From contig NC_013441.1 of assembly GCF_000024785.1 (NCBI RefSeq), positions 248,001-312,000 on the forward strand: a DNA stretch of 64,000 nucleotides. The letters run 5' to 3'. Every line of letters starts with the position of its first letter. Within the stretch, counting starts at the first letter, position 1. Below the pieces are notes generated by a model that was not told the origin of the DNA, did not search any database, and worked only from the letters and a program-made list of their open reading frames with translations. Below, one piece after another: positions 6,465 through 30,953 of this stretch. Origin of the DNA: Gordonia bronchialis DSM 43247 (GTDB lineage Bacteria > Actinomycetota > Actinomycetes > Mycobacteriales > Mycobacteriaceae). Position numbers and translations under genes: made by a program.

Positions 6465-6506
6465 GTGACCATCACAGCCGAACCAACATCACTTCGAGAG
6501 GAAGCG

Positions 6507-7994: not shown

Positions 7995-8022
7995 GGTGGC
8001 GGCGCCGTTGTTGTCGGGCTCC

Positions 8023-10674: not shown

Positions 10675-10683
10675 GTGTGCTCC

Positions 10684-12614: not shown

Positions 12615-12719
12615 CACATTCTCCTCCGTCGGCGCGTGTCGAGTCCGACGGTAAGAGGCAGGTGGCTCCCAGGGCGTTCCGAACGGACTGCCCGGACGGC
12701 GGCAGCCCATTTCGTGACG

Positions 12720-12740
12720 CTGTTCGGGATTGCCGAACAG
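12720..12740. promoter_or_regulatory. Probable operator in the divergent catabolic promoter
   Basis: CTGTTCGG and CCGAACAG form a perfect 8-bp inverted repeat with a GATTG spacer. A shorter palindrome with a related core (CGTTC-C-GAACG, 12675-12685) lies 35 bp to the left. Both are in the 222-bp gap between the divergent acetaldehyde dehydrogenase and dioxygenase starts. I infer a shared regulator; none is encoded next to it. Confidence 0.5.
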
Positions 12741-12836
12741 TGGTGACCGGCATCACAACGATCGCGCATGCTTGCGGTCATCCGCACCGGAACGGACGTC
12801 GAAGACCGGCGTCCGATGAGTCACACAGGAGATCCG

Positions 12837-14004: not shown

Positions 14005-17000
14005 TCAGTACCCACTCGACCGCATCGGCGCCGGGTCGTACATCCCAGACCGGCGCGCGGTGCCGATCTCGAGCTCAGCCGGGGGCGCGGGCGCGATCTC
14101 GGTGAACCGTTGCAACCCACCCCAATCGCGTCCCCAGTTGTTCCGCAGGTAGGTCGGCAGCAGGGTCGGACGCAGCATCGCCTCGGTGATGCCCAGCGGC
14201 CCACCGGCCTTGCCGGACATCCAGGTCTGGCTGTTCTTCCGGGTCGCCTCGGCGTCGGGCATGATCCGCCACTTGGGTACCTCGAGGACACCGTTGCGGA
14301 CCGCCATCGGCCGCTGGCAGGGGAACACGAATCCGGGCAGCCAGTCGATGAAGACCGGATCGGTCCGTCCCACAACGTCATTCAACGTGGCAAGCGAGCT
14401 GACCCGGGGTGGTGTGATGGCCACCCATTCCGACGGCGCGCCGGAGGTGTCCTCGACGATCACGCGGACCACCGTCGCCTCACGGGGCGCGTCGGCGAGC
14501 GGGAACCGGAGGTTGCGCCAGGTCGGAGTCTCCCCGATGTCAATCGGGGTGCGGATGGCAACGGTGCTGACCCGGCCGGACGGTTCGAGGTGCCCGTATT
14601 GCACGACTACCTTCTGCCCGGGATGCACCACGCCGATACCGTCGACGGCTTGTACCGAGCCGGCGACCGCGATGGTCAGCAGCGGGGCGTTGTGCCGCTC
14701 CGGCAACCGATACCAGTCCGTGGTCAATGACGCGGTGCCCGAGGGTGATCCGTAGGATCCCAGGACCGGGGTCTTGGCCGGGTCCAGACCGAAGGGCAGG
14801 CGCACCGTCGAACCGTTGACGCCGCGGACGCCGCCCTTGCCGCCCTCGGTGCCACCCTGGGCCGAGGTGTTCTGGTCGTCGGACACCTCGTCTGCACCGG
14901 CGCCGGTCTGCGCGGTGTTCTGTGCGGACGTGGTGGAGTCCTGATCCTCGGTGGCGTCCACCGACAGGCGGTCGGGCACCCCGTCGGGGGTGAATCCGGA
15001 ACTGTCCGCGCCGGACAACGCCTGTGCGACACCGGGCGCCGGGCGGCGGCCGATCGCGGCCGGTACGAGCAGGCCCGCCGTCGGGTCGGCCTCCACCAGC
15101 ACGTCGTTGGCGAGAGCACAGGAATTACCGCTCAGCGCACGGGCATTCGATTTCGCCCACGACCACGAATCGCGTTGTTCGTAGGCGCCCTTGATGAACG
15201 AGGCCACCATGAACAGCACGACGAACCCGGCGATCACCGGCAGCGGCGAGAACTTGAGACGCGAATACCACGCGCCACCACCGATTGTCCGGGTCTTCTC
15301 GTCGACGTAGTCGTCGCGGAAGTGGAACCAGAGACCCACCAGCGCGGTGACCACGGCCAGGATCAGGAAGGCCCAGCCGAGCTTGATCGGCCCGATCGAC
15401 GGCGGACGGTCCCACCAGGGGATGCCGTAACTGCCGACGAACCACCAGCCGTTGGTCCCGGCGAAGGACATGCCGGTGACCGCGAGGACAGCCGCGGCGA
15501 AGAAGGTGCGGTTGCGCCGCGACCGCAGGATCGCCGGCGCCATCATGGCGCCCGCCGCGGCAGCGAGACCGGCAGCGATACCGGCGTACACACCGAAGTG
15601 GTGTGTCCACTTGGTGGGTGTGAACGAAATGAAGAACATGGTACCCAGCGTCACCGCCACCAGCCGCCAGATGGGCGCGCGCGCAACACCGCTCGGGTGT
15701 TCACGACGCAGCAGCCGCAGCAACACCACCACCAGGCACAGGATCATGATGAGAATGCCGAAGCGGCGTGCCAGCGTGCCGTCGGCGGTCGGCAGGATCA
15801 GGTAGTAGTAGCGAACCGGTTCCTGCCACCACTCCAGCGTCGGGCCGACGTCGGTGGCCACCTGATTGCCGGCGATCAGCGGTGCGAGCGGCTGATCGGC
15901 GAAGATCTGGAACAACACGGCGGTACCGGCGGCCAGGATCGGTGCGAGCATGGGCAGCAACCCATCTCGACGACGACGCGTCACCAGTGCCTTGACGACG
16001 GGACGGATTCCGGCGAGCAGTGCCGCGACGGCCATCAGCCCGCCCGGTGCCAGCGCCAGCGTGAAGGCGGCGGCCACCACCGCGACCGCGTACGGCAACA
16101 GACGACGCGTCGCGATGGCCCGCTCCACACAGCACCAGGTGAGCAGGGCGCCGACGGCTTCGGCGGGTTCGGGACGCAGACCGTTGTTGTAGGGCAACCA
16201 GATCGCGAGGAACACGAAGGCCGCCGACCACACCGCCGGGGTGCTGTTGCGCACCGCGCGGCCCAATCGTGGGATCACCTCGCGGCTGATCAGCCACCAG
16301 CCGAGCAGCCCGAGTAGGAAGGCGGGCAGGCGCATCCACGGCGCGGCCAGACTCACGTGGCTCATCGCCGAGATCACCTGGAAATGCCAGCCGAACGGGT
16401 CCTGCGGCACCCCGAAGTACCGGAAGTAGTTGTCGGCGTAGCCCGCCTCACCGGTGATACGCCCGACGACGAAGTTGTAGCCGTCGTCGGAGGTGTTGGT
16501 GCCGGCGAACCACCAGAACGCCAGGATGACGAACACCGCGACGTCCGGGCCGCGGATGGTCCACCATTGTGAGGGCAGAAAACGCTTGTGGCCCCGACCA
16601 TCCCGGTGATCGAGGATGCCCAGCGCGACCAGCGACAGGATCGTCATCAGGATGCCGAGGATGATCACCGTGAGTTTGAGAGCCGATGGCGTGCTGACGT
16701 AGCGGGTGTCGATGGTGGCCCGCAACGAGAGTCCGTCACGCGGGGCATCGGCCGGGAGATAGCTGTACACGCCGACGATCTGCGGCCGCATCTCGTGATC
16801 ACCGGTGGTGAAGGTGGTGAGTCCCGTGCTCGCGCCGGCGTTCTCGAAACGTGCCTGCACGCCATGTCCGTCGGCGTGCAGGATGATGCGGCAGCCCGGA
16901 TTCGACTGTGCCGCAGCACGCGGGGTGCTGAGGATGACGACGTCGCGGTCGGTGACGGTCAGGGTGTCGGCGGTGGCCCGCACGAACAGTCCGCGCGCCG

Positions 17001-17331
17001 CCGAATCCTGTCCCTGTTCGGGGATGGTGGACAGCAGCACCCCGCCGTTCGCGGGTAGCCGTGCCGCCAGCACACACGGCACCGTCATGTCCATGTCGAT
17101 CGGCACGTACGACACCAGCGGAGCCGCAACATCCGACACGGTATCGCCTTGTGGCCAACGGAGTTCCGCGGTGGTCTGATTGACCGGCAGCAGAGGGGTC
17201 AGCACGGCCGCCAGGAATCCCAGCAGGCCGGTCACCACCGCGGCGATCTTCACCCAGCGATAGTCCCGGCGAGCGTCGGCGGGTGCCTCGTCGTCGGCTG
17301 TGACCACTGTGTTCTCGGGTCCGTCACTCAT
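14005..17331 (-). CDS. embB: EmbB-type arabinosyltransferase, minus-strand pair
   Basis: The protein has 1,108 residues, the usual Emb length. It has an N-terminal cytoplasmic tail, a first membrane helix (about 28-50), a periplasmic domain, a multi-helix GT-C domain and a C-terminal carbohydrate-binding part. The catalytic acidic pair is D282-D283 in NTSDDGYNF, and the conserved FTPTKWTHHFG loop is intact. RYYYLILPTADGTLARRFG matches EmbB best as I recall it. Emb proteins move arabinose from decaprenyl-phosphoarabinose onto arabinan chains of the envelope. A Ser/Thr/Asp-rich linker follows the membrane part. It overlaps the embA stop by 8 bp (ATGAGTGA), as the plus-strand pair does. EmbB versus EmbC class is inferred from memory. 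Confidence 0.85.
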   Translation of the reverse strand: MSDGPENTVVTADDEAPADARRDYRWVKIAAVVTGLLGFLAAVLTPLLPVNQTTAELRWPQGDTVSDVAAPLVSYVPIDMDMTVPCVLAARLPANGGVLLSTIPEQGQDSAARGLFVRATADTLTVTDRDVVILSTPRAAAQSNPGCRIILHADGHGVQARFENAGASTGLTTFTTGDHEMRPQIVGVYSYLPADAPRDGLSLRATIDTRYVSTPSALKLTVIILGILMTILSLVALGILDHRDGRGHKRFLPSQWWTIRGPDVAVFVILAFWWFAGTNTSDDGYNFVVGRITGEAGYADNYFRYFGVPQDPFGWHFQVISAMSHVSLAAPWMRLPAFLLGLLGWWLISREVIPRLGRAVRNSTPAVWSAAFVFLAIWLPYNNGLRPEPAEAVGALLTWCCVERAIATRRLLPYAVAVVAAAFTLALAPGGLMAVAALLAGIRPVVKALVTRRRRDGLLPMLAPILAAGTAVLFQIFADQPLAPLIAGNQVATDVGPTLEWWQEPVRYYYLILPTADGTLARRFGILIMILCLVVVLLRLLRREHPSGVARAPIWRLVAVTLGTMFFISFTPTKWTHHFGVYAGIAAGLAAAAGAMMAPAILRSRRNRTFFAAAVLAVTGMSFAGTNGWWFVGSYGIPWWDRPPSIGPIKLGWAFLILAVVTALVGLWFHFRDDYVDEKTRTIGGGAWYSRLKFSPLPVIAGFVVLFMVASFIKGAYEQRDSWSWAKSNARALSGNSCALANDVLVEADPTAGLLVPAAIGRRPAPGVAQALSGADSSGFTPDGVPDRLSVDATEDQDSTTSAQNTAQTGAGADEVSDDQNTSAQGGTEGGKGGVRGVNGSTVRLPFGLDPAKTPVLGSYGSPSGTASLTTDWYRLPERHNAPLLTIAVAGSVQAVDGIGVVHPGQKVVVQYGHLEPSGRVSTVAIRTPIDIGETPTWRNLRFPLADAPREATVVRVIVEDTSGAPSEWVAITPPRVSSLATLNDVVGRTDPVFIDWLPGFVFPCQRPMAVRNGVLEVPKWRIMPDAEATRKNSQTWMSGKAGGPLGITEAMLRPTLLPTYLRNNWGRDWGGLQRFTEIAPAPPAELEIGTARRSGMYDPAPMRSSGY

Positions 17332-20300
17332 CTGCTTGCGGCTCCACCCTGATCGAACCCGTTCGCGACCAACCCCACTGTGTCACCTCTCCGGTGCTCA
17401 GCCGGGCCGGCGGTGCATCCGGCACCAACGGCGTGAGTCGTTCCAGTGCACCCCAATCCCGCGTCCAGTCGTCCTTCAGGTAGGTCGGGACGGCCAGCGC
17501 CGAGGTGGTGGACTCGGAGACGGACAGCAGGCCACCGTCGGCCGCGGCCTGCCACGTCTTGGACTGCGAGTTGGTGGTCGGGTAGTCGGCCAGGATGCGC
17601 CACTGGGGTACCTCGGCGACGCCGTGGCGCACCTGCAGGGGACGCTGGCAACTGAAATGCGCGGCCGCGCTGAAGTCGATCAGCGTCGGCGCGTCGGACC
17701 CGACGACCTGCTGCAGGGTCTGCAACCGCGGGGCGCGCGGCGGCGTGATCCCGATGAACTGATACTGCCCGAGGTTGTTGTCCAGCAACGACAGTCGCAT
17801 CAAGCTGGCGGCCCGGGGTACGGCGGCCATCGGTACCCGCAGGTTGCGCCACGGCCGATTGGTGATCACCGGGCCGGGATCGATCGGCAACACATCGGGA
17901 CCGATCTGGGTGAACGCACCGCCCGGACCGGGCCGGCCGAATTGGACGACGAGCTTCTGCCCGAAGTTGCGCACCCCGAACTGATCGATCGTCGACACCG
18001 CGCCCGCCGTGCTGAAGACCAGCAGCGGCGACACCGACCGGTCGGCGGGCAGTTCGTAGGCGCCGGTGGTCAGCCGCGCCTCACCGAGGTGGCCGTAGCT
18101 ACCGAGAACAGGCGTCGTCTTCGGGTCGAGTCCAAAGGGCAGCAATGCATTCGAGCCGTTGACGGTGGTCGGTCCGACGCCGCCGGTGGTTCCGGCGCCG
18201 AGTCCGCCGGTGATGGCGAACGGCTTGGCGAAACTCGCCGACACATTCATCTGGCCGGGCCGCTGACTGCCGGGTTCGGGAGCCAGGTTCTCCGGAATGC
18301 CCTGCGGGGTGAAACCGACCGAACCGACACCGGTCAACGCCGCGGTCGCCGAGAGCCCGTCGGCCGGGACCAACATGCCCGCGTTCGGATCCGACTCCAC
18401 CAGAACCTGATCGGCCATCCCGCAGGAGTTGCCGCGCAGCGTATCGACGTTCTCGGAGAACACGGTGACGGCCGGGTAACGGCTGACCGCCGCCTTGGCG
18501 AACACCAGGAGTTCGGCGATCACCATCAGGCCCGCGATCACCGCGATCGGCGACGACGCCAGGAACAGTCGTCGCCGATCGGCTCGGCTCTGCCCCGGGC
18601 CGTCGTCGGCGTGCGCCAGCCCCTTGTTCTGCACGTAGTCGAGTCGAAGATGTTGCCAGACAGCCATTCCCGCGGTGATGACGGCGAGGATCAGGAACCC
18701 CGTCGATACCTCGTAACCGGCGAGAACAGGTGCGCGGTCGAACCAGGAGATCCCGTATTCATAGACGAACGGCCACGAGTTGTAACCCGCGGTAGCCGCC
18801 GCCATCGCGAAGAACAGGCCGGAGACGAACACCGTCAGATTGCGGGCCGAGCGCGCCGCCGACTGTGCCACGGCCAGAGTGGCGGCGGCCGCGATCGCCG
18901 CACCGAGACCGGCGAAGACACCGAACTGGATGGTCCACTTGGTGGGGGTGAAGGCGAACAGCAGCAGCGTCACGCCGATCGCACCGATGAGCCGCCACAT
19001 CGGGCCGGGCGCGACACCACGGATGCGGGTGCGCCGCAGCATCACCGCGACCGTGACGATCACACCGGCCAGCAGGAGCAGCAGCGGTACCCGTCTGGTG
19101 AGCGCGCCGTCGTCGGTGGGGACGGTGATGAAGTAGTAGCGCAGGAACTCCTGATGCCAGCTGATCACCGGACCGACCTGATAGCGCAGCTTCATCGCCT
19201 CGAGGACGCCTGCCAGGGTCTGATCACGGAACACCACGACGGCCACCAGCGAGCCCGCGGCCGCGATGGGTGCGATCAGGGCGAGGGTACCGGCGACTCC
19301 GCCGCCGGTGGTACGCCGACGATCGAGCAGGATGTGCAACAACGGGCGGGCCGCGACCAACAGGATGGCCACCCCGATCACGCCGTGCGGGGCCAGTGCC
19401 AGCGTGAACGACGCCGCGATGGCCGCCAGCGCGGCCGGCAGCAGCCGCCGGGTGGCGATGGCGTTCTCGGCGGCCCACCACGTCAGCAGCGAGCCGAGCA
19501 CGATGATGCCCTCGCTGCGCAGGCCGCTGCAGTACGGCAACCAGAACGCGGTGAAGGTCAGCGCAGCCGCCCACAGCGCCCAGCCACTCGATCGAACCGC
19601 CGCCCCCAACCGCGGCAACAGCACGCGAGTGAGGATGAACCACGACGCCAGCCCGGCGATCAGCGGCGGGATGTGCATCCACAGCAACGACGGCGACACC
19701 GACGACCAGTGGGCCAGGAAGCTGTAGTACCAGTCGAACGGCGCTTCGGGGATGCCGTAATAGCGGTAGTAGTTGGCCAGGTAGCCGAAACCGTCGGCGG
19801 TGCGGCCCATGTTCAGGATGTAACCGTCGTCGGGGCTTCCCGCGCCCAGCAGCAGCCAGATCAGCAGCACGGCGGTGACGGCGAGATCGGTGACTCGCGG
19901 ACGCAGCGTGCGCCACCACGGGCCGGCCCGCGTGCGGCGAACCCGCGGCGCGTGCAGCCGGTCCAGCAGGTACAGCGCGATGAGCGCGACGAGCACCGCC
20001 ACCACCGCGGCCACCATCACGACAAGTTTGAGGACCGTGGGCGAGTTCTCGTAGCGGTTGTCGATCTCGACGTGCACGCGCAGGCCCTGCGCGGCGCGCA
20101 CCGCGTCGGTCGGCACCGCACTGAAGACGCCGTCGACCTGCGGGCGTTTGTCCGGCGCCAGGGTGGTCGACGGTCGCAGGCCGACGAATTGCGCGCCCGG
20201 CCCGCTCGGCGCCGACCACACATGGAGCTCGCTGCATCGGCCCAGCTCGGAGCGGGCAGCGGTGGCCGCGACGCTGTTGCGGAACGTCACCGTCACCGAC

Positions 20301-20695
20301 TCCGCGGTCGCGGTGATGTAGAGCGCCGACGCCTTGGACTTGGCTGCCGCGGTCGGCATGGTCCCCACGATGACGCCGGCGCCGTCGGGCAACGCGGGCA
20401 GGATCGTCGAGGTGAGCGTCGCGCACGGGATGCGGATGTCGAGGCTACGGGGGGTCTGTGCGATCAGCGGTGCCGTCACCGACGACGTCTGTGCCGACAG
20501 CGGCTGATCCTGCGGCCAGTCGAAGGTGGCGTCGGTGGCCTTGACCGGCAACAACGGCGTCAGTGCACACAGCACGACACCCAGGACGCCGGCCACGATG
20601 GCCACCAAGCGGGCGTTGTCCGCCGAGAACGGCCCGGACACCTCTGCGGTCGGCTGATCTGCTCCTGGCGCAGGGGTCGGGGCTGTCACAGGCAC
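17324..20695 (-). CDS. embA: EmbA-type arabinosyltransferase, minus-strand pair
   Basis: The protein has 1,123 residues from GTG 20695. It has an N-terminal tail, a first helix about 29-51, and the acidic pair D289-D290 in GAGSPDDGYIL. GIPEAPFDWYYSFLAHW has the APFDW form seen in EmbA, and VVFRDQTLAGVLEAMK is also EmbA-like. FTPTKWTIQFG is intact. The C-terminal part carries NGSNALLPFGLDPKTTPVLG and FSCQRPLQ, common to the family. It is the first gene of a two-gene operon with the EmbB-type gene and is divergent from a second embA, with 103 bp between starts. EmbA and EmbB form a heterodimer in mycobacteria, so this pair probably does too. Confidence 0.87.
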   Translation of the reverse strand: MPVTAPTPAPGADQPTAEVSGPFSADNARLVAIVAGVLGVVLCALTPLLPVKATDATFDWPQDQPLSAQTSSVTAPLIAQTPRSLDIRIPCATLTSTILPALPDGAGVIVGTMPTAAAKSKASALYITATAESVTVTFRNSVAATAARSELGRCSELHVWSAPSGPGAQFVGLRPSTTLAPDKRPQVDGVFSAVPTDAVRAAQGLRVHVEIDNRYENSPTVLKLVVMVAAVVAVLVALIALYLLDRLHAPRVRRTRAGPWWRTLRPRVTDLAVTAVLLIWLLLGAGSPDDGYILNMGRTADGFGYLANYYRYYGIPEAPFDWYYSFLAHWSSVSPSLLWMHIPPLIAGLASWFILTRVLLPRLGAAVRSSGWALWAAALTFTAFWLPYCSGLRSEGIIVLGSLLTWWAAENAIATRRLLPAALAAIAASFTLALAPHGVIGVAILLVAARPLLHILLDRRRTTGGGVAGTLALIAPIAAAGSLVAVVVFRDQTLAGVLEAMKLRYQVGPVISWHQEFLRYYFITVPTDDGALTRRVPLLLLLAGVIVTVAVMLRRTRIRGVAPGPMWRLIGAIGVTLLLFAFTPTKWTIQFGVFAGLGAAIAAAATLAVAQSAARSARNLTVFVSGLFFAMAAATAGYNSWPFVYEYGISWFDRAPVLAGYEVSTGFLILAVITAGMAVWQHLRLDYVQNKGLAHADDGPGQSRADRRRLFLASSPIAVIAGLMVIAELLVFAKAAVSRYPAVTVFSENVDTLRGNSCGMADQVLVESDPNAGMLVPADGLSATAALTGVGSVGFTPQGIPENLAPEPGSQRPGQMNVSASFAKPFAITGGLGAGTTGGVGPTTVNGSNALLPFGLDPKTTPVLGSYGHLGEARLTTGAYELPADRSVSPLLVFSTAGAVSTIDQFGVRNFGQKLVVQFGRPGPGGAFTQIGPDVLPIDPGPVITNRPWRNLRVPMAAVPRAASLMRLSLLDNNLGQYQFIGITPPRAPRLQTLQQVVGSDAPTLIDFSAAAHFSCQRPLQVRHGVAEVPQWRILADYPTTNSQSKTWQAAADGGLLSVSESTTSALAVPTYLKDDWTRDWGALERLTPLVPDAPPARLSTGEVTQWGWSRTGSIRVEPQADE

Positions 20696-20798
20696 GATGT
20701 CTGATGGTAAGCGAGATGCCTGAGAGCACCTAAATCTCTTCTCAGACTTCCGCCCGCCGCGATTCCGGCGCGCAGCTGTCCACTACTGTCACAGACTG
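20696..20798. promoter_or_regulatory. Shared divergent promoter region of the two embAB operons
   Basis: Only 103 bp separate the two embA starts, so both operons must be driven from here. I see no convincing -10/-35 pair or inverted repeat. Neither embA has a strong ribosome-binding site. Confidence 0.5.
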
Positions 20799-23700
20799 AT
20801 GACTGCGCCTTCCGAGCCGTCCGCGGAACCATCGCCGGACGCGCCCACCGATTCGGCCGAACCGGCCCATGCCACCGCGTCGAACACCCGGCGCTGGGCG
20901 CTGGCCGCCGTGTTCGGCGGGATCGTCGCGGTCATCGCCGCGATCCTGACGCCGCTGTTGCCGGTCACCGAGCACACCGCCCGCATCGACTGGCCGCAGG
21001 CGACCGGCACGGCCGTGACCGCCTCACTCGCGGCGCAGACGCCCGCCGGACTCGACATCGCCGTGCCGTGTTCGACGCTGGACCGCGAGGTCCGCAGTGG
21101 CACGCCCGGCGCCGCGCGGGTCGTGGTGCTGTCCACCGTGCCCGCCGGCGGCTTGCGGGCCGCCGACAAGGGCCTGTTCATCACCACCGACCGGACCGGC
21201 GCATCGGTGACCGTCCGCGGCAAAGAGGTGCTGCGCATCCCGGCCGCCGAGCTCGCCCGATGCGAGCGTGTGCGCATCACCTCGACCCTCGCGGGTCTGC
21301 AGGCCCGCGCGGTGGGTATCGGCACCACCGGGTCCGTGGGTCCCACCGACCTACCGCAGGTGTCCGGGGTGTTCACCGACCTCGAGCCGGCCGCGGTCAC
21401 CGCCGCAGGCGCCGACGGACTGGCCGTCCGCATCGACATCGACAACCGATTCGACACCGCGCCCACGGCACTGAAACTGTTCGTGATGATCGTCGGGGTG
21501 CTGGCCGCGATCCTCGCCCTGATCGCGATCGCCGTGCTCGACGTCCGCGGCGGCTACCACCGGCGTGTCGGCCGAGGTGACCTGCGCCGGCTGCTCTGGC
21601 CGCGCCCCGCCGACCTCGCCGTCACCGCGGTGCTGGTGATCTGGCATTTCCTCGGTGCCGGGTCCTCCGACGACGGCTACATCCTCACCATGGGCCGCAA
21701 CAGCACCGACGACGGCTTCCTGGCCAACTACTACCGCTTCCACGGCATCCCCGAGGCCCCGTTCGACTGGTACTACACCTTTCTGGCGCACTGGTCGACG
21801 GTGTCGACCGCGGGTGTGTGGATGCGGTTGCCCGCACTGATCGCCGGACTCGTCTCGTGGTTCATCCTGAGCCGAATCCTGTTGCCGCGGCTCGGCGGGG
21901 CGGTACGCCGATCGCAGTGGGCGATGTTCACCGCCGCCGCCGTGTTCGTCGCGTTCTGGATGCCGCTGTGCAGTGGGCTGCGCAGCGAGGGCATCATCGT
22001 CGCCGGTTCGCTGCTCACCTGGTGGGGCGTCGAGCAGGCCATCGCCACCCGGCGCATGCTGCCGGCCGCCGGCGCGGCCCTGGCCGCGGGAATCACTCTC
22101 GCGCTCGCGCCGCACGGCATCATCGCCGTCGCCCTGCTCATCGCCGGATCCCGGCCGATGCTGCGGATCATCCGCCGGCGCGGCACCGAGAACGGACTGC
22201 TGCCGCTGATCGCGCCGATCGCCGCCGCGGCCGCGATCGTGGTGATCCTGGTGTTTCGTGACCAGACGCTGGCGACCGTCGCCGAAGCGCTGCGGGTGCG
22301 CTACACCGTCGGCCCCACCCTGGCCTGGTATCAGGAACTACTGCGCTACTACTTCCTCTCGCTGACCACCCAGGACGGCAGCCTGGTGCGTCGCGTGCCG
22401 TTGCTGCTGTTCCTCACCGCCCTGTTTGTCGCCATCGCGGTGATGTTGCGGCGCAAGCACATTCGTGGCGTCGATCCAGGGCCCGTGTGGCGCCTGGTGG
22501 GCGCGGTGCTGCTCACCGTGCTGCTGCTGTCGTTCACGCCCACCAAATGGACCGTGCAGTTCGGCATCTACGCCGGCGTCGCGGCCGCGATGGCGGCGGT
22601 CGCAACCGTGGCCGTGGCCGAGTCGGCCCGCCGATCCCCACGCAATCTGTGGATGTACATCGCGGTGCTGATGTTCGCGTGTGCGGTGGCGTCCGCGGGG
22701 AAGAACGCGTGGGGCTGGGCCTACGACTTCGGTATCGCCTGGTTCGACAAGGCGCCGTCGGTCGCCGGAATCCAGCTCTCCAGCGTGCTGCTGGTGGCCA
22801 CGGTTGCGGCGCTCGCGGTGGCGGTGTGGTTCCACCTGCGCATCGACGTCGACGCCGAACGCGGCGTCGTCCGGTCCGCACAGGCGGCGCCGTCGGCAAC
22901 CCAGATCGCCATCGCATCGTCGCCGATGCTGATCATCGCGACGCTGTTGGTGCTGGTCGAGTTGGCGTTGTTCGCCAAGGCCGCCGCGGTCCGGAGCGAC
23001 ACCTACACCACGTTCAGCGCCAACATGCGTGCGCTGACCGGCAACACCTGCGGGATGGCCGACGACGTCCTCGTCGAATCCGATCCCAACGTCGGTGCGC
23101 TGCAACCGATCGGCACCACCGACATCTCGCGTGCCCTCGCCGGTGACTCCACCGGCTTCACCCCCGACGGGGTGGCGCCGGACCTGCTGCCCGACCCGGA
23201 ATCGCTCGGTGCCGGCACCATCAACACCTCCGGCAACCTGGCCCGGCCGTTCGTACTCTCCGGCGGTCCGCCCGGAACCACCGGCGGCGTCGGGCCGGTA
23301 GGGGTCAACGGCAGCCGGGTGAAACTCCCGTTCGGATTGAACCCCCGAACCACCCCGGTGCTGGGCAGTTTCGGGCACGACAACGAAACCGCCGAGCTCA
23401 CCTCCGGCTGGTATCGGCTTCCCGACCGCAACGCCTCACCGTTGTTGGTGATCACCGCGGCCGGACCGGTCTTCTCCGTCGACCAGGACGGTGTCGCCGC
23501 ACCCGGTCGGTCGCTGAAGGTCCAGTTCGGGCGAGCCGGGACCACGCCTGACGCCTTCGAGCCGATGGGCCCGGGTTACGTGCCGATCGACCCGGGACCC
23601 ACCAAACCCAACCGGCCGTGGCGGAACCTGCGCATCCCGATGGAGGCCGTCCCGGCGGGTGCGACCGCGATGCGGATCGTCGCACTCGACAACAACGTGA

Positions 23701-24143
23701 GTCCCGATCAGTGGCTGGCGTTCACGCCGCCGCGCGCCCCGCGGCTGCGGACGCTGCAGCAGGTCGTCGGCTCCGATGCGCCTGTGCTGCTGGATCTCTC
23801 GGTGGGCAGCCAGTTCCCCTGCCAGCGCCCGATGACCACCCGAAACGGTGTGCTCGAGGTCCCGCAGTGGCGGATCGTGCCCGATGCGGTCACCACGAAC
23901 TCGAAGTCCAAGACGTGGCAGGCGGCGGTCAACGGCGGTCTGTTGACCACCCCGGAGGCACTCACCTCGGCGGACACCGTCGCCACGTACCTCGACCATG
24001 ACTGGTATCGGGATTGGGGTGGCCTGCAACGACTGTCGCCGCTGGTGCCCGACGCGACACCGGCACACGTGACGACGGGGGAGAAGACGACGTGGGGCGT
24101 GAGCCGACCGGGCCCGATCAGGGTGGTGCCGCAAGATGACTGA
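20799..24143 (+). CDS. embA: EmbA-type arabinosyltransferase, plus-strand pair
   Basis: The protein has 1,114 residues, closely resembling the minus-strand EmbA. It has the acidic pair D291-D292 in GAGSSDDGYILTMGR, GIPEAPFDWYYTFLAHWSTVS, VVFRDQTLATVAEALRVRY, intact FTPTKWTVQFG, and a C-terminal binding part with PFGLNPRTTPVLGSFG and FPCQRPM. The pattern VFRDQTLATVAE is the form I recall for mycobacterial EmbA. It is the first gene of the rightward embAB pair, overlapping the next gene by 8 bp (ATGACTGA). It is probably a duplicate of the leftward embA; which copy is ancestral cannot be told from the window. Confidence 0.87.
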   Translation: MTAPSEPSAEPSPDAPTDSAEPAHATASNTRRWALAAVFGGIVAVIAAILTPLLPVTEHTARIDWPQATGTAVTASLAAQTPAGLDIAVPCSTLDREVRSGTPGAARVVVLSTVPAGGLRAADKGLFITTDRTGASVTVRGKEVLRIPAAELARCERVRITSTLAGLQARAVGIGTTGSVGPTDLPQVSGVFTDLEPAAVTAAGADGLAVRIDIDNRFDTAPTALKLFVMIVGVLAAILALIAIAVLDVRGGYHRRVGRGDLRRLLWPRPADLAVTAVLVIWHFLGAGSSDDGYILTMGRNSTDDGFLANYYRFHGIPEAPFDWYYTFLAHWSTVSTAGVWMRLPALIAGLVSWFILSRILLPRLGGAVRRSQWAMFTAAAVFVAFWMPLCSGLRSEGIIVAGSLLTWWGVEQAIATRRMLPAAGAALAAGITLALAPHGIIAVALLIAGSRPMLRIIRRRGTENGLLPLIAPIAAAAAIVVILVFRDQTLATVAEALRVRYTVGPTLAWYQELLRYYFLSLTTQDGSLVRRVPLLLFLTALFVAIAVMLRRKHIRGVDPGPVWRLVGAVLLTVLLLSFTPTKWTVQFGIYAGVAAAMAAVATVAVAESARRSPRNLWMYIAVLMFACAVASAGKNAWGWAYDFGIAWFDKAPSVAGIQLSSVLLVATVAALAVAVWFHLRIDVDAERGVVRSAQAAPSATQIAIASSPMLIIATLLVLVELALFAKAAAVRSDTYTTFSANMRALTGNTCGMADDVLVESDPNVGALQPIGTTDISRALAGDSTGFTPDGVAPDLLPDPESLGAGTINTSGNLARPFVLSGGPPGTTGGVGPVGVNGSRVKLPFGLNPRTTPVLGSFGHDNETAELTSGWYRLPDRNASPLLVITAAGPVFSVDQDGVAAPGRSLKVQFGRAGTTPDAFEPMGPGYVPIDPGPTKPNRPWRNLRIPMEAVPAGATAMRIVALDNNVSPDQWLAFTPPRAPRLRTLQQVVGSDAPVLLDLSVGSQFPCQRPMTTRNGVLEVPQWRIVPDAVTTNSKSKTWQAAVNGGLLTTPEALTSADTVATYLDHDWYRDWGGLQRLSPLVPDATPAHVTTGEKTTWGVSRPGPIRVVPQDD

Positions 24144-27100
24144 GAAGCGTTACCGCATCGCCAAGCTCGTGGCCGTCATCGCCGGCGCGATCGGTGTCCT
24201 GCTCGCGCTGGCCGCACCCTTCCTCCCGGTGACCTACACCAAGGCCGAGCTGAATTGGCCGCAACAGGGTTCGGTGCAGAATGTGGCCGCCCCCAACGTG
24301 TCCTATGTGCCGGTGTCGGTGGACATCGCGGTGCCGTGCACCTTGGCCGCCGACCTGCCGGCCGCCGGTGGCGTGCTGTTGTCGACGGTTCCCGAGAACG
24401 GGGCCGAGGCCGGCAAGGTGGGCCTGTTCATCCGGGCAACCGAGCAGCGACTCATCGTCACGCAACGAAATGCGGTGCTGCTCAGCGTGCCCCGCGCACA
24501 GGCGCAGGACAATCCGGGATGTCGCGTGGTGATCCACGCCGACACCTCCGGTACCCGCGGCGCGGTGGAGGGACTTGCCCCCGAAGCCGGGGTGACCACC
24601 TTTGATCTGCGCGATCCCAACGCCCGACCGCAGATCATCGGCGTCTACACCGATCTGCCGCCCGGTGCGTCGACCGAGGGCCTGTCCTACCGGTCCACCA
24701 TCGACACCCGATTCATCTCGAGTCCCACCACCCTCAAGGGTCTCGCGCTCATCATCGGCGTGCTGTGCACCATCGCGTCGATGATCGCGCTCGCGGTGCT
24801 CGACTCCCGGGACGGCCGCAAGCTGCGAAAGCTGTTGCCGCACCGCTGGTGGCGTCCGCGCATCGTCGACGTCGTGGTGGGCGTGGTGCTCCTGATCTGG
24901 TTGTTCATCGGTGGCAACACCGCCGACGACGGCTACCAGGTGACCGTCGGCCGGATCGCGCCCGGCGCCGGCTATCTGGACAACTACTACCGCTATTTCG
25001 GTGCGCCGCAGGACCCGTTCGGCTGGCACTACCAGTATCTGGCGCTGTGGATGCAGGTCAGCACGGCCACGCCATGGCTGCGTCTGCTGCCGTTCCTGTT
25101 CGCGCTCGCCGGCTGGTTCCTCATCAGCCGGGCCGCCCTGCCACGGCTCGGCAAGGCGGTCGCGTCGTCGACGCCGGCGATGTGGGCGGCCGGCCTCGGC
25201 TTCCTGGCGGTATGGCTGCCGTTCAACAACGGTCTGCGGGTGGAACCCGTTCTGTCGGTGGGCATCCTGCTGACCTGGGTGCTGGTGGAACGCGCCGTGG
25301 CCACCGGCCGGCTGTTCCCGCTGTCGCTGGGTATCGTGTCGGCGGCCTTCACCCTGACGATCCATCCGGCCGGGGCGATCGCCGTGCTACCGCTGCTCGC
25401 CGCGCTGCGGCCGATCCTGAAGCGACTGCGAATGCGGTGGCGCCGAGACGGATTCCTGCCCGTACTGATGCCCATCCTGGCGTCGGGTCTCGCGGTCCTC
25501 TTCGAGATCTTCGCCGACCAACCGCTCGCCTCGATCCTGGAAGGTGTCGAGGTACAGGGCATCGTCGGCCCCACCAACAAATGGTGGACCGAGGCGATGC
25601 GGTACTACATCCTGCTCAATCCCACACCCGACGGCTCGATCGCCCGCCGCGTGGGCATCTTCGTGACCATCCTGGCGGTGCTGATCATCGTGCTCACGCT
25701 GCTGAGCAAGCGCCGGGTGTCGCGGGTGGCCAGCGCGCCGCTGTGGCGGTTGGTCACGGTGACCGCCGGTGCGGTCGCGGTGCTGGCTTTCGTGCCCACC
25801 AAGGCCACCCACCAGATGGGCGCCTTCGCCTGTCTCACCGGTGTTCTCGCGGCTGCTGCGACGGCGCTGCTGCGACCGTCGGTGATGCGACGACGCTGCA
25901 ACCGGACCTTCGTCACCGCGGCGGCCGCCTACGCGCTCGCGGTCGCCTTCGCCGGCCGCAATCAGTGGTGGTACGTCGGCAGCTACGGCATCCCCTGGGG
26001 CGACGACACCCCCAACGTCCGCGGTATCGGACTCTACGTCCCGATCCTGGTGGTGGCGGTCGCGCTCACCGCCTACGGCGCCTGGCAGTACTACCGCGAC
26101 GACAAGCTTGCCGAACTCGGCGAGCCGGTACCCGCCTACCGCGTCAACGATCCTCGCCCGCAACGGTTCCTGCGCCGAATCCCCACCTACTCACTGGCCA
26201 TTATCTGCGCCGCGATGCTGGGTTTCACGTTCATCTCATTCGCCAAGGCGATCGACACGCAGCGCGATTCCTGGTCGTGGGCAAGTTCCAACCTCGACGC
26301 CATGCGGGGGAACACCTGCGCCCTCGCCGACGCCGTCCTCGTCGAGGAGGACCCCAATACGGGACTGCTGGCACCGGCACGTGTTGCCGGGCAGAACAAT
26401 CCGTCGCCCGGTGCGGCGCTGGCGGGCCGCGGGATGACCGGATTCGATCCCAACGGGGTGTCGTCGAACCTGGAGAGCGACAGCGAGGGAGAGGACTCCG
26501 ACGACGCCGGCCAGGACCGCACCCAGACCGATCCCAACAAGGCGCCCGAAGAGCCCAGCGGCGGTGCGGGTTCGGCCGACACGGGTGGCGGCACCACCGC
26601 CACGCGTGGCGTGAACGACTCCATGGTCCGCCTGCCGTTCGGCCTCGACCCACAACGCGTCCCGGTCCTGGGAACCTACGGAAACCCCAGCGGCAGTGGC
26701 CATCTGCAATCCGACTGGTATCAGCTGCCCGCGCGCAGTGACGACCGCCCGATCGTGACCATGTCGGTGGCCGGCAAGATCGAATACATCGACGAGCTCG
26801 CCGTGCGTCATCCCGGACAGAAGTTGCGACTCGAGTTCGGGCGGGTCGAGCCCGACGGTCGCGTCACCACCGTCGCGTCGATGCTGCCGCTGGACCTCGA
26901 CGCCGCACCCGAGTGGCGCAACCTACGCTTCCCGCTCGACCAGGCTCCGCAGCGCGCCTCGGTGGTGCGCATCGTCGCCGACGACACCTCCGCCGACCCC
27001 GACCAGTGGCTCGCCGTCACCCCGCCGCGGGTGACCAAGCTGGTGACACTGAATTCGCTTGTCGGTAGCGAAGATCCGGTACTCCTGGACTGGGAGGTGG

Positions 27101-27429
27101 CCTTCGCCTTCCCGTGCCAGCGTCCGGCGTCGGCCGCCAATGGGGTCCTCGAGACACCGATGTGGCGCATCACCCCCGACGCCGAGGGTGAGCGCGTGAA
27201 CTCGCGGCGCTGGATGGCCGGCGACTACGGCGGCCCGCTCGGCATCGTCGAGAACGAACTACGCCCGACGGTGCTGCCGGCCTACCTGCGCAACGACTGG
27301 GCCAAGGACTGGGGCAGCCTGCAACGCCTGACCCCCCTCAAACCGCAGGTGACCGCCGAGATCGACCTCACCGACGACGTCCACTGGGGCTGGTGGACAC
27401 CCGGACCGATGCGCGCGGTCAAGAACTGA
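24136..27429 (+). CDS. embB: EmbB-type arabinosyltransferase, diverged copy
   Basis: The protein has 1,097 residues with only a short N-terminal tail. The acidic pair D264-D265 (NTADDGYQV) and GAPQDPFGWHYQYLALW are present, so the glycosyltransferase core is likely active. The otherwise invariant FTPTKW..FG loop reads FVPTKATHQMG (residues 552-562), with Ala in place of Trp; the other four Emb proteins here keep the Trp. An Asp/Glu/Ser-rich linker (about 775-815) precedes the C-terminal carbohydrate-binding part. It is coupled to the rightward embA by an 8-bp overlap and converges on embC. The divergence suggests a changed acceptor or a different role from the leftward EmbB. Confidence 0.83.
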   Translation: MTEKRYRIAKLVAVIAGAIGVLLALAAPFLPVTYTKAELNWPQQGSVQNVAAPNVSYVPVSVDIAVPCTLAADLPAAGGVLLSTVPENGAEAGKVGLFIRATEQRLIVTQRNAVLLSVPRAQAQDNPGCRVVIHADTSGTRGAVEGLAPEAGVTTFDLRDPNARPQIIGVYTDLPPGASTEGLSYRSTIDTRFISSPTTLKGLALIIGVLCTIASMIALAVLDSRDGRKLRKLLPHRWWRPRIVDVVVGVVLLIWLFIGGNTADDGYQVTVGRIAPGAGYLDNYYRYFGAPQDPFGWHYQYLALWMQVSTATPWLRLLPFLFALAGWFLISRAALPRLGKAVASSTPAMWAAGLGFLAVWLPFNNGLRVEPVLSVGILLTWVLVERAVATGRLFPLSLGIVSAAFTLTIHPAGAIAVLPLLAALRPILKRLRMRWRRDGFLPVLMPILASGLAVLFEIFADQPLASILEGVEVQGIVGPTNKWWTEAMRYYILLNPTPDGSIARRVGIFVTILAVLIIVLTLLSKRRVSRVASAPLWRLVTVTAGAVAVLAFVPTKATHQMGAFACLTGVLAAAATALLRPSVMRRRCNRTFVTAAAAYALAVAFAGRNQWWYVGSYGIPWGDDTPNVRGIGLYVPILVVAVALTAYGAWQYYRDDKLAELGEPVPAYRVNDPRPQRFLRRIPTYSLAIICAAMLGFTFISFAKAIDTQRDSWSWASSNLDAMRGNTCALADAVLVEEDPNTGLLAPARVAGQNNPSPGAALAGRGMTGFDPNGVSSNLESDSEGEDSDDAGQDRTQTDPNKAPEEPSGGAGSADTGGGTTATRGVNDSMVRLPFGLDPQRVPVLGTYGNPSGSGHLQSDWYQLPARSDDRPIVTMSVAGKIEYIDELAVRHPGQKLRLEFGRVEPDGRVTTVASMLPLDLDAAPEWRNLRFPLDQAPQRASVVRIVADDTSADPDQWLAVTPPRVTKLVTLNSLVGSEDPVLLDWEVAFAFPCQRPASAANGVLETPMWRITPDAEGERVNSRRWMAGDYGGPLGIVENELRPTVLPAYLRNDWAKDWGSLQRLTPLKPQVTAEIDLTDDVHWGWWTPGPMRAVKN

Positions 27430-27443
27430 CCCGCCTCCGCGGT

Positions 27444-27480
27444 CGTTGACCGTGCGTCGGATCTCGACGCACGATCAACG
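27444..27480. terminator. Bidirectional terminator hairpin between embB and embC
   Basis: The arms 27444-27459 and 27465-27480 pair at 15 of 16 positions around GATCT. A third copy of the core (GACGCACGGTCA, 27487-27498) follows in direct orientation. It lies between convergent emb genes. The rest of 27430-27548 shows nothing else. Confidence 0.65.
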
Positions 27481-27548
27481 GATATGGACGCACGGTCAGT
27501 GGGCGGACGCAGGGAGACGACGCTGGTCGTAACCGGGAGCGTCGAGTA

Positions 27549-30500
27549 CTACTTCCGGATCGGCGCCGGACTCCACAGCCCGCTGCGGGTGGCGGTGCCG
27601 GTCTGGATGTCCGCGAGGGTCGTCACGCCGCCATACGGCGTGTAGCGTTCCAGCGCTCCCCAATCGCGACCGATGTCGCCTCGCAGGTAGGTGGCGAGTG
27701 CGGTCGCCTCCTGGGACACCTGCAGCCAGCCGACCGGGCCGCCGCCGAACTGGTCCTGCCAGGCGGTCACCGCGGCAGCGAGATCGGCGCCCGGCTTGAT
27801 GCGCCAGTCGGGGATCTCGGCCACACCGACGTGATGGTCGAAGGGCCGCTGGCATGGGAAGGCGAGTCCGGAGGTCCAGTCGACGTGCACCGGCGCCTCA
27901 CGTCCGACGACGTCCTCGAGCGTGCGCATCTTCGGCACCCGCGGCGGGGTGACGACGATGAAGCGATCCTCGGACAGGTTGTCGTCGGTGGCGACGATAC
28001 GGACCGCGGTGGTGTCGGCGGGCAGATCCTTGGTGTCATAGCGCAGGTTTCGCCAGGACGGCCGGGGCCCGGGGTCGATGAGTTCGGTCTCGTCGGCCGG
28101 GGTGAGGTCGCCGTCGCGGGTGTTCGGCCCGATCGGATCGGAGGTGTACTGCAACATCAGATTGGGGTTGTCGTACTCGCCGGCGACCGACATCGTCAGC
28201 AGCGGACGGTCGCGCCAGCCGGCGGGCAGTGCGTACCAGCCGGAGGTCAGTTTCGCCGGGATCTGGTCGGTCTTGGAGTAGCTCCCCATCACCGGGGTGG
28301 TGGCCGGGTCGAGGAAGAACGGCAGCTTGGCGCGGCTGCCGTTGATTCCGGGGGTGGGCAGTACGCCGCCGCCGGTGCCGCCGGGGTTGGAGTTGAGGAT
28401 GTCCGGCGCCGCCCAGACGTTGCCGGCGAGGACGCCCAGTGAGCCCTCGCTGGCGGTGCTGGACAGATCGTCCTCGACGCCGTTGGGCGAGAACCCGACG
28501 GTGCCGGGCTGGGCGTCGGAGCCCGGTGGCGTCGTCGGCCCGCCCAGCGGGTTGGGGAGCGTTCGATCGACTGGCCGGAGCATGTCGCGGTTGGGGTCTT
28601 CTTCCACCCACACCCAGTCGGCCATCCCACATTCGTTCCCCGCGAGAGCTTCCAGGTTGGAACGCGGAGTGGAGAAGGAACTGCTCTGGTTGATGGCGGA
28701 GAACGCGGCGGTGACGATCTCGAAGACCACCACGGCGGCCGCGACGTAGGCGAACGGAGCCGATGCAATGGATGTGCCCACCCGCCGGTAGGCGCGTGGA
28801 TGACGCGGTGGGGGAGCGTTCTCGGCCGGGTCGGTGCCGGTGAACGGTTCGCGGAAGTGGAACCACAGGGCCAGTGCGAGCAGCAGCAGCGACAGGTAGA
28901 GCAGCAGTTGGCCGAGCATCAGCCCGCCGATCGTCACCTGGCTGATGCCCCACGGCATCCCCCACGACGAGTAGTAGTAATACGAGTTGGGTGCGGTGAA
29001 TGCGAAGCCCGTGACAAACAGGACCAGCGCCGCGAACAGCGTCCGGTTGCGGCGCGAGTGCATTGCCTGATGGCCGGCCGCGATGGTGGCGATCGCCGCC
29101 AGCGCGGCGGCGAGCCCCGCGAACACGCCGAAGTGGTGGGTCCACTTGGTGGGCGTGAACATCAGGAACACCAGTGACGCGAAGGTGATCCCGACGATGC
29201 GACGTGACGGACCCAGTGCGGTCCCCGGGATACGCGACTTGCGGATGAGGACAGCCGCGGAGACCACCATCGCCAGGATCATCGCGAGCACCGCGAACCG
29301 GCGCGCGATGGAACCGTCCGCCGAGAACGCGAAAAGCGAACTGTAGCGGTCGATCTCACTGAACCAGTGGCGCGACGGTCCGACGTCGGTCTTCATCGTC
29401 GACGCCTCGGTGAACGAGCGCAGCGTCAAGTTGGAGAAGACGACGAACACGACGAAGGTGCCGGCCGCAACGATGGGCGCGATCAATGCGACGTAGGACC
29501 ACGCGCCGCCGCCGATGACCCGCGCCCGCTTGATGAGTGCCATGATCATCGGCCGGGCGCCGGCGATGAGCGCGGCGACCGCCAGCAGGCCGGTGGGCCC
29601 GGCGGCGAGGCTGAATGCGCCGACGAGGCAGGCCACCGCCGCCGGCAGGAGCCGTCCGGTCGCGATCGCGCGTTCCACCGAACACCAGGTGAGCAGGGCG
29701 CCGAGGCAGATGATGGGTTCGGGACGCAGCCCGTTGTTGAACGGGAACCAGAACGCCAGGAACACGAAAGCAGCCGTCCACGCCACCGGCGGCCGGGTCA
29801 GCGCGGCGCGGCCGAGGCGCGGAATGACCTCGTGGCTGACGATCAGCCAGGCCAGGATGCCGCAGATCAGGGCCGGGATCCGCATCCACGGACTGGCCAC
29901 CGACACGTGGCTGAGCATGCCGAAGACCTGGTAATACCACCCGAACGGCGCTTCGGGTGCGCCGAACCAGCGGAAGTAGTTGGCGGTGTAGTCGGTGTCC
30001 TGGGCGACCCGCGACATGGTCAGCAGGTAACCGTCGTCGGAGGTGTTGGGCCCGATGAAGTGCCACACGATCAGCGCGCCGATCACCACGTAGTCACGGG
30101 CGTTGAGGTGCCACCAGCGGGCGGGCAGGAATCGGCGGTGACGGCGGCCGTCGGTGGAGTCGAGCGCAGCCAGGGCGACCAGCGACAGCAGGGTCGCGAT
30201 CACGCCGACGATGACGACGATCCACTTGAACACCGTCGGGGCGGTGTTGTACCGGGAATCGATGGTGACGTGGGCGTCGAGCCCGGGGACGTCGGCGGCG
30301 GGGCCGCTGAGGTCGGTGAACAGCCCGGTGAGCTGCGGACGCTGATCCGGCCAGTACTTGTACTGGTCGCGGGTGTCGGTGGACCCCATCAGCGGTGACC
30401 CGTCGTTGCCGCGCATACCCACGAACTCGGCGGTCACCGCGTCGGCGTCGGCGTGCACCACGATGTCGCGGCACGGCTGTGACCGGACCTGGGCGAGTGT

Positions 30501-30953
30501 CGCCGACACGAGCGGCACGTTGCGGTTGACGACCTCCACCGAGCGGTGGTCGTCGGGGTCGCTCGGTGAGCCGGTGACGCGGATGAACAGTCCGCGTTCG
30601 CCGCTTTTCTCCGCTTGCTTGGGCAGCGTCGACAACAGGACCGAGCCGTTGTCGCCGAGGCGGTCGACCGCGGTGCATGGGATCGAGATGTCCAGGTCGA
30701 TGGGGACGTAGCTGATCAGCGGTGCCGCCACCGAGCTGATCGCGTTCTGCTGCGGCCAGGTGATCTCTGCGGTCGTCTGCTTCACCGGCATGAGCGGTGT
30801 GGCGAGCGCGAGGAACAGGCCTGCCAACCCGGCGATGATGGCGACGAGTTTGGCTCGCCTCACGTTCTGGGCTGCGGACACAATGAGAGATGTTAGCCCC
30901 GGCGTCTCACCGTCCCTTTCCGGGACGGCTCCGGTAGGCCCGGCGGGGACCAC
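27549..30953 (-). CDS. embC: EmbC-type arabinosyltransferase
   Basis: The protein has up to 1,134 residues from GTG 30953. A shorter start at the GTG for VSAAQNVRRAKL (24 codons later) would also give a full family N-terminus. The acidic pair is in NTSDDGYLLTMSR (D306-D307 in the long form). FTPTKWTHHFGVFAGL, GTALGPSRRIVGIT and the end RSGLWSPAPIRK match mycobacterial EmbC closely, as I recall it. EmbC extends the arabinan of lipoarabinomannan in mycobacteria. Here it is not adjacent to aftA as in Mycobacterium tuberculosis: aroQ, an SRPBCC gene, an ArsR gene and a hydrolase lie between them. It is divergent from aroQ, with only 12 bp between the longest possible starts, so the shorter start may be the true one. 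Confidence 0.85.
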   Translation of the reverse strand: MVPAGPTGAVPERDGETPGLTSLIVSAAQNVRRAKLVAIIAGLAGLFLALATPLMPVKQTTAEITWPQQNAISSVAAPLISYVPIDLDISIPCTAVDRLGDNGSVLLSTLPKQAEKSGERGLFIRVTGSPSDPDDHRSVEVVNRNVPLVSATLAQVRSQPCRDIVVHADADAVTAEFVGMRGNDGSPLMGSTDTRDQYKYWPDQRPQLTGLFTDLSGPAADVPGLDAHVTIDSRYNTAPTVFKWIVVIVGVIATLLSLVALAALDSTDGRRHRRFLPARWWHLNARDYVVIGALIVWHFIGPNTSDDGYLLTMSRVAQDTDYTANYFRWFGAPEAPFGWYYQVFGMLSHVSVASPWMRIPALICGILAWLIVSHEVIPRLGRAALTRPPVAWTAAFVFLAFWFPFNNGLRPEPIICLGALLTWCSVERAIATGRLLPAAVACLVGAFSLAAGPTGLLAVAALIAGARPMIMALIKRARVIGGGAWSYVALIAPIVAAGTFVVFVVFSNLTLRSFTEASTMKTDVGPSRHWFSEIDRYSSLFAFSADGSIARRFAVLAMILAMVVSAAVLIRKSRIPGTALGPSRRIVGITFASLVFLMFTPTKWTHHFGVFAGLAAALAAIATIAAGHQAMHSRRNRTLFAALVLFVTGFAFTAPNSYYYYSSWGMPWGISQVTIGGLMLGQLLLYLSLLLLALALWFHFREPFTGTDPAENAPPPRHPRAYRRVGTSIASAPFAYVAAAVVVFEIVTAAFSAINQSSSFSTPRSNLEALAGNECGMADWVWVEEDPNRDMLRPVDRTLPNPLGGPTTPPGSDAQPGTVGFSPNGVEDDLSSTASEGSLGVLAGNVWAAPDILNSNPGGTGGGVLPTPGINGSRAKLPFFLDPATTPVMGSYSKTDQIPAKLTSGWYALPAGWRDRPLLTMSVAGEYDNPNLMLQYTSDPIGPNTRDGDLTPADETELIDPGPRPSWRNLRYDTKDLPADTTAVRIVATDDNLSEDRFIVVTPPRVPKMRTLEDVVGREAPVHVDWTSGLAFPCQRPFDHHVGVAEIPDWRIKPGADLAAAVTAWQDQFGGGPVGWLQVSQEATALATYLRGDIGRDWGALERYTPYGGVTTLADIQTGTATRSGLWSPAPIRK

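Follow-up and report, generated by a model that had tools for sequence, protein, structure and literature searches.

A second, inverted embA-embB pair in the arabinosyltransferase cluster of Gordonia bronchialis: age, distribution and proposed function

The emb locus of Gordonia bronchialis DSM 43247 raises the question of where a second, inverted embA-embB pair came from and what it does beside the first. The locus lies in a 64,000-nt stretch of contig NC_013441.1 (here called the window; all coordinates are positions in it) and contains five open emb reading frames of 1097-1134 aa each, spanning 14005-30953. All five proteins possess full-length Arabino_trans_N, Arabinose_trans and Arabino_trans_C domains with scores far above the Pfam cut-off, and in a profile search of the whole 5.29-Mb genome PF04602 matched only these five genes. 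The resident pair, embA1 (17324..20695, minus strand, 1123 aa, GTG start) and embB1 (14005..17331, minus strand, 1108 aa), diverges across a 103-bp gap (20696..20798) from the second pair, embA2 (20799..24143, plus strand, 1114 aa) and embB2 (24136..27429, plus strand, 1097 aa, with A at residue 557 and Q at residue 560). Within each pair the two genes overlap by 8 bp, namely ATGAGTGA at 17324..17331 on the minus strand and ATGACTGA at 24136..24143 on the plus strand. embC (27549..30953, minus strand, 1134 aa) converges with embB2 at a spacing of 119 bp. The five proteins belong to the A1, B1, A2, B2 and C clades of the Emb tree, respectively. The initial annotation of this DNA had described the five genes, the outward-facing pairs, the equal overlaps and the facing embC, and the open reading frame (ORF) coordinates bear it out in all these respects.

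The order dprE1-dprE2-aftA-embC-embA-embB is standard in mycobacteria. Read on the minus strand, the window keeps this order intact save for A2-B2, which sits inverted, with the end of embC on one side and the ancestral embA promoter on the other, so that embC lacks embA and embB as its immediate downstream neighbors on the same strand. The locus is a known enzyme cluster in a new form, with a second embA-embB pair present. A literature search, most subscription journals being outside it, turned up no report of a five-gene emb set or the mirrored layout in Gordonia, PMC7775120 included. As a whole, we consider it somewhat probable from the sequences that the standard cluster received an old, inverted pair 2, that each pair has its own promoter, and that pair 2 supplies a second heterodimer with an altered EmbB2.

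The mirrored order and the equal 8-bp overlaps had led the initial annotation to propose a duplication with inversion, which would be a local event within this lineage. However, the phylogeny contradicts this proposal. In a tree of 381 Emb proteins, all full-length Gordonia proteins recovered fall into five clades (C 58, A1 58, B1 58, A2 48, B2 48) with supports of 1.00, except for B1 (0.84); the one gene absent from each of the C, A1 and B1 clades spans two frames (G041, G001) or is truncated by the end of its contig (G033). Identity is 53% between A1 and A2 and 50% between B1 and B2. In a tree of 314 proteins, A2 and B2 are each placed outside a clade of Gordonia pair 1 and Williamsia, both nodes having a support of 1.00. 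In a tree of joined A+B proteins (IQ-TREE, a chosen subset of 55 pairs), pair 2 groups with genus g12 with an ultrafast bootstrap (UFBoot) support of 92, the two falling outside the group of Williamsia and Gordonia pair 1. A topology in which pair 2 is sister to Gordonia pair 1 fails the approximately unbiased (AU) test (p = 0.002 for A+B, 0.033 for A and 0.0105 for B). Pair 2 as sister to Williamsia is rejected on A+B and on A, not on B (0.10), while a position outside Gordonia plus Williamsia (0.42) or as sister to g12 (0.45) is not rejected. At the level of sequence, these results show that the two pairs parted either earlier than Gordonia and Williamsia did or independently of that split.

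The equal overlaps are no guide to duplication either. By a mechanical start-codon check, most A1 overlaps in Gordonia measure 4, 8 or 11 bp, and the same 8-bp overlap occurs in 5 of 10 outgroup pairs (three Williamsia, G. jinhuaensis and W. sterculiae). The overlap is thus common among embA-embB pairs, variable in length and not diagnostic. Moreover, tandem and mirrored forms of pair 2 are found in different sub-lineages of Gordonia. Local inverted duplication is rejected by the topology tests together with the conflict between the A2+B2 tree and the species tree described below, and we give this origin next to no weight.

Among the matches listed from 401 genomes of the family (two candidates scored per genome), the identity of B2 outside the genus is at most 54%. 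Among the best 120 of 792 protein matches, all full-length matches of at least 60% are from Gordonia where the source is named, after which identity drops to 52%; one fragment stands aside (67% over 52% of the query). The low identity outside the genus and the tree placement imply that pair 2 is old or foreign and not a local copy. A foreign origin, namely horizontal transfer from an unsampled actinobacterium into the Gordonia stem and again within Gordonia, is compatible with every functional reading discussed below. It is favored by the position of pair 2 with g12 outside Gordonia plus Williamsia, by the conflicting histories within the genus, and by emb-like genes on plasmids of Rhodococcus, Tsukamurella and others. 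However, the identity figures above reveal no donor, GC content and GC content at third codon positions (GC3) of pair 2 resemble those of the other emb genes, a search for a phage origin of pair 2 gave no match, and the AU test cannot separate transfer from ancient duplication with losses. We regard transfer as a tentative possibility, somewhat short of even. Pair 2, which most Gordonia genomes have, is old, and its origin is uncertain, since the trees do not separate duplication from transfer. As an observation on plasmids, 13 plasmid records (Rhodococcus, Tsukamurella, Nocardia and Mycobacterium) have an Emb-like match, four of which cover at least 80% of the query; of ten records listed (H1-H10), six, all from Rhodococcus, match only about the first third.

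How widely is pair 2 distributed? Among 59 genomes of the window's GTDB genus, Gordonia, A2 and B2 are both present in 49, only C, A1 and B1 are found in 10, and A2 or B2 alone in none, so pair 2 comes and goes as a unit. The usual number of emb genes in Gordonia is hence five. Both genes of pair 2 are full-length in 47 genomes; in G014 A2 is in two frames, and in G027 B2 is cut at a contig end. Six genomes have six PF04602 matches, each of which resolves to five genes: a single B2 is matched in two pieces within one frame in G026, G030, G031 and G037, B1 is split over two contigs in G033, and the sixth case is the divided A2 of G014. As a side observation, emb genes in two overlapping frames, owing to sequencing error or to a broken gene, were seen at L171 (embC, G041), L146 (embA1, G001) and G014:C1:361528-362912 (embA2). 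By hand assignment from coordinates, the layout is mirrored in 17 genomes, tandem downstream of B1 in 15, distant in 17, and pair 2 is absent from 10; for G010, counted as mirrored, only the A1-A2 mirror is visible because its embC is on a separate contig. The mirrored layout is thus not universal in the genus.

The history of pair 2 within Gordonia is not that of its neighbors. Species order was taken from a C+A1+B1 tree and from rpoB+rpoC (rpoBC) DNA of 40 of the 59 genomes. In both, the window group (the window, ABSL49 and ABSL1-1) joins the tandem species with a support of 1.00, and the desulfuricans-polyisoprenivorans group joins the sputi group, which has the distant layout (0.98 in C+A1+B1, 1.00 in rpoBC DNA). 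The amarae group also has the tandem layout; C+A1+B1 places it with the other tandem species (0.99), but rpoBC DNA does not. In contrast, the A2+B2 tree places all mirrored genomes together (1.00) and the tandem species with the sputi group (1.00). On A2+B2 data, the AU test rejects the window group joined to the tandem species minus the amarae group (7.6e-92) and the sputi joined to the desulfuricans group (1.6e-5); conversely, rpoBC DNA rejects monophyly of the mirrored genomes (0.015) and tandem species with the sputi group (0.0027). This conflict implies that the mirrored pair is not the tandem pair flipped. The claim rests on the AU tests, because other trees differ in part: the rpoBC protein tree places soli and the rhizosphera-hankookensis group elsewhere than the DNA tree, and among single genes the window group joins the tandem species for C (0.92), joins part of them for B1 (0.82) and does not join them for A1. 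The deep order among Gordonia groups is weakly resolved.

The two histories correspond to a residue difference. Among 48 B2 proteins, position 557 is A in all 17 mirrored and in 13 distant genomes, and W in 15 tandem and three sputi-group genomes; we call these types alpha (A) and beta (W). None of the 59 genomes has alpha and beta pair 2 together. On the sequences at hand, two versions of pair 2 appear to have been exchanged or sorted within Gordonia, the trees leaving undecided whether by transfer or by sorting of two ancient copies. It is conceivable, if rather unlikely, that alpha and beta are interchangeable second EmbA-EmbB enzymes whose EmbB donor pocket is altered, and that species swap them as they might a module that sets serotype, the arabinan of arabinogalactan (AG) or of lipoarabinomannan (LAM) differing accordingly. 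If true, such swapping would make arabinan structure differ among species by the pair carried.

The initial annotation had also suggested that the cell may switch between the pairs, and the 103-bp gap bears on this point. Alignment of the mirrored genomes revealed two conserved blocks in the gap. On the minus strand, a -10-like TACCAT (20704..20709) is located 8 nt before the GTG of embA1, and TAGGTG (20727..20732) is at the -35-like position with a 17-nt spacer, the latter being kept in most mirrored genomes. On the plus strand, a -10-like TACTGT (20784..20789) is located 9 nt before the ATG of embA2. Both -10-like elements are of the leaderless type, and their spacing to the start codon suggests that the mRNAs may be leaderless. 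The embA1 pattern TA[ACG][CG]AT, followed after 6-10 nt by GTG, occurs in 17/17 mirrored, 15/15 tandem, 2/12 distant and 5/9 pair-2-less assessable genomes (rate in shuffled sequence 0.012), and the embA2 pattern TA[GC][GCT]GT, followed after 7-13 nt by ATG, in 17/17 mirrored and 0/29 tandem or distant genomes assessed (shuffled rate 0.034), these counts being descriptive and not a test because the patterns were written after the alignments had been viewed. Tandem A2 genes have the embA1-type element instead (13/13 assessed), as do 4/16 distant ones. The embA1-type element also precedes embC in 57/57 assessed genomes, and the embC and embA1 elements suggest that the emb genes may share a common leaderless promoter class. 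Of seven outgroup loci shown, five have it before embA (Williamsia muralis, W. limnetica, g12, the Tsukamurella-like g30 and the Mycobacterium-like g29; not in W. maris or G. jinhuaensis). Because most of these outgroup embA loci have the same element, embA1 most likely kept the ancestral promoter on the arrival of pair 2. Consensus promoter and terminator scans gave no excess over shuffled sequences, and none of their hits lies in the 103-bp gap.

A switch in which the cell uses one pair or the other would gain from the predicted start sites being about 100 bp apart, so that polymerase footprints could touch. However, each pair has its own conserved promoter-like element, and neither the two -10 elements nor the embA1 -35-like element overlap. 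The pairs are not mirrored in 32 of the 49 genomes that have both. Repeats of at least 24 nt (seed 14) lie between emb genes, the exceptions being two short repeats that have an arm at 13681-13719. None resembles the edge of an invertible element; the inverted similarity in the region is 70-87% and nearly all of it is between emb genes. No recombinase domain was found among the flanking ORFs scanned, a subset of the ORFs. We therefore consider a switch very improbable. Instead, each pair is probably transcribed from a promoter of its own, so that near-leaderless mRNAs would leave the gap in opposite directions, and translational coupling through the 8-bp overlap would yield EmbA and EmbB together.

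What does the second pair make? All five emb genes are maintained under purifying selection, because dN/dS (nonsynonymous to synonymous substitution) in eight species pairs is low (0.04-0.20 for A2 and B2; 0.02-0.16 for A1, B1 and C). Solved Emb structures match the window proteins by sequence, which fixes the fold. In M. smegmatis EmbB numbering, used hereafter, PMC7341804 names the catalytic DDx motif (D285 and D286), R389 and E391. D285/D286 is kept in all full-length Gordonia sequences of C (58/58), A1 (58/58), B1 (58/58) and B2 (48/48) and in 47/48 of A2, the exception having E at D285, and R389 and E391 are kept alongside. The A2 of the window reads DD, so the catalytic acidic pair proposed for all five proteins is indeed present. 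The two genes of pair 2 are adjacent, overlapping and of EmbA type and EmbB type.

PMC7305291 describes donor arabinose between D285 and E313, and a shift of E313 and H580 upon ethambutol binding. H581, adjacent to H580, is Q in 48/48 B2 and H in 58/58 B1 and 9/9 outgroup B proteins, and W578 is A in 30/48 B2, including all 17 mirrored genomes. The position of H580 is I, V or M in 58/58 A1 and at least 47/48 A2 proteins, and the B-type D at 314 is kept in 48/48 B2 and 58/58 B1. Position 313 is Q in both Gordonia EmbB proteins and in the Williamsia and g12 EmbB examined. The combination of V at M292 and Q at E313 is natural in both Gordonia EmbB (14005-17331 and 24136-27429) and in five Williamsia-type EmbB. 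We assume a correspondence to W592/H594 and M306 of M. tuberculosis EmbB; a literature search on W592/H594 gave no match.

Between A1 and A2, 201 fixed columns are shared and 3 differ; between B1 and B2, 231 are shared and 20 differ. The divergence of EmbB2, and not of EmbA2, suggests an altered reaction or acceptor of EmbB2 on the same heterodimer plan. We take A1-B1 to be the housekeeping EmbA-EmbB arabinosyltransferase and EmbC to be the lipoarabinomannan enzyme, judging by their families. Beside them, A2-B2 most likely forms another EmbA-EmbB heterodimer, one whose specificity has changed: it would use the same lipid donor, and the changed EmbB2 may elongate or branch a different arabinan stretch or acceptor. 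The two kinds of arabinan envisaged in the initial annotation are compatible with the fixed EmbB2 changes.

Several observations weigh against this interpretation, in addition to the descriptive nature of the promoter-pattern counts. The B1/B2 fixed differences are not significantly enriched in active-site loops (Fisher p = 0.15) or in the membrane core (p = 0.066). In the 381-protein tree the stem branch of B2 is 0.30 and that of A2 is 0.12, so faster drift of B2 is possible. B2 scores 806 bits against mycobacterial EmbC structures and 793 against EmbB, and because EmbC scores slightly higher, B2 is labelled EmbB on the strength of its gene order, the D314 signature and its clade; in the 314-protein tree, mycobacterial EmbB does not group with Gordonia EmbB, the deep node being unresolved (0.04). 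Furthermore, ten Gordonia species live without pair 2. Together with the similarity of A2 to A1 at constrained sites and the same catalytic residues in both pairs, the absence from these species and the lack of significant clustering at the active site are also what would be expected if pair 2 performed the same chemistry as pair 1 and added only capacity or backup. Such redundancy is at odds with a divergence of about 50% kept across the genus, with the 20 fixed changes in B2, and with the window, where homogenization was not seen and the longest exact match is 23-24 bp. Redundant dosage is thus possible but unlikely. According to the preferred interpretation, an old second pair, which has been exchanged, sorted and lost in Gordonia along a course of its own, would encode the altered heterodimer.

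The surroundings of the cluster are as follows. Upstream of embC, as in the standard cluster, are aftA (33073..35022, minus strand; AftA_N and AftA_C domains), a short-chain dehydrogenase (35028..35786, minus strand) and a member of the FAD/D-arabinono-lactone oxidase family (35820..37241, minus strand); by position, we take the last two to be dprE2-like and dprE1-like, respectively. A metallo-beta-lactamase-fold ORF is also on the embC strand beyond embC, in series with aftA and the two oxidoreductases. NCBIfam gave no family for six proteins. Beyond embB1, the region 4911-13925 contains P450, ferredoxin-reductase-like, short-chain dehydrogenase, HMGL/DmpG aldolase and glyoxalase/dioxygenase-superfamily ORFs, perhaps for steroid or aromatic degradation. 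The second contig of the genome (C2, about 81 kb; 5290012 minus 5208602) is possibly a plasmid. Of the 42 non-mirrored genomes, 11 have over 1 kb of other DNA at the embC-embA1 junction. ORFs were scanned in five of these gaps and in one that is shorter by the coding-overlap measure; unrelated genes were found at L144, L143, L152, L174, L145 and L249. They include an epimerase-family gene (malaquae, zhenghanii), a cluster of dehydrogenase, phosphotransferase system (PTS) and DeoR genes (asplenii), and ORFs lacking a Pfam match (lacunae, G014, effusa). tblastn detected no remnants of an emb pair at E <= 1e-3 in the embC-embA1 gaps of seven Gordonia loci. In ABSL49 (L039), B2 and C are separated by an ORF resembling a P-type ATPase.

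To our knowledge, neither the division of arabinan making among EmbA, EmbB and EmbC nor the reason why Emb number varies among mycolate bacteria, from one to five per genome in those surveyed, is settled. Gordonia provides a natural series, from C-A1-B1 only to one extra EmbA-EmbB pair of alpha or beta type, that could tie Emb sequence differences to differences in the arabinan product. It also shows that genes as central to the cell wall as an embA-embB pair can follow a different history from their neighbors within one genus.

Relatives outside the genus have smaller or differently built sets. The embCAB loci of Williamsia and G. jinhuaensis contain the closest relatives of C, A1 and B1, several with the 8-bp A/B overlap, but they consist of embC-embA-embB only; six whole genomes (G083, G086, G092, G094, G115 and G119), whose Williamsia/G. 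jinhuaensis placement is partly inferred, have just three emb genes. One locus (L063), titled Kitasatospora arboriphila NRRL B-24581, has an embCAB that groups with Williamsia muralis and is probably from a mislabelled or contaminated assembly. Corynebacterium belongs to the same family, a control C. glutamicum genome giving a PF04602 match, with one gene against five in the window, and two g3 genomes have one match each. In three further family members, PF04602 has no match (two genomes) or a partial one (the third) (G087, G118, G096), which hints at Emb loss in some lineages. Genera g22 (five genes, of types other than those in Gordonia; genome G098), g30 (four) and g21 (four) resemble Gordonia in having more than three emb genes per genome; however, with one genome each in the tree, their copies beyond the first cluster fall outside the EmbA clade, so those genomes have no second embA-embB pair of this kind.

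The best-studied point of reference is the mycobacterial embCAB cluster with its EmbA-EmbB (PDB 7bvf, 7bvc), EmbC (7bve, 7bvh) and EmbB (6x0o) structures. The three Pfam domains, the DD pair, R389, E391 and the embC-embA-embB order are common to both, and the one Mycobacterium-like locus shown has the same embA -10-like element and a leaderless-type GTG start. Relative to mycobacterial EmbB, both Gordonia EmbB proteins have Q for E313 and V for M292, while H581 is replaced by Q in EmbB2 and W578 by A in its alpha type. On the other hand, the window differs from the mycobacterial cluster by an additional complete embA-embB pair, which lies in reverse orientation between embC and embA.

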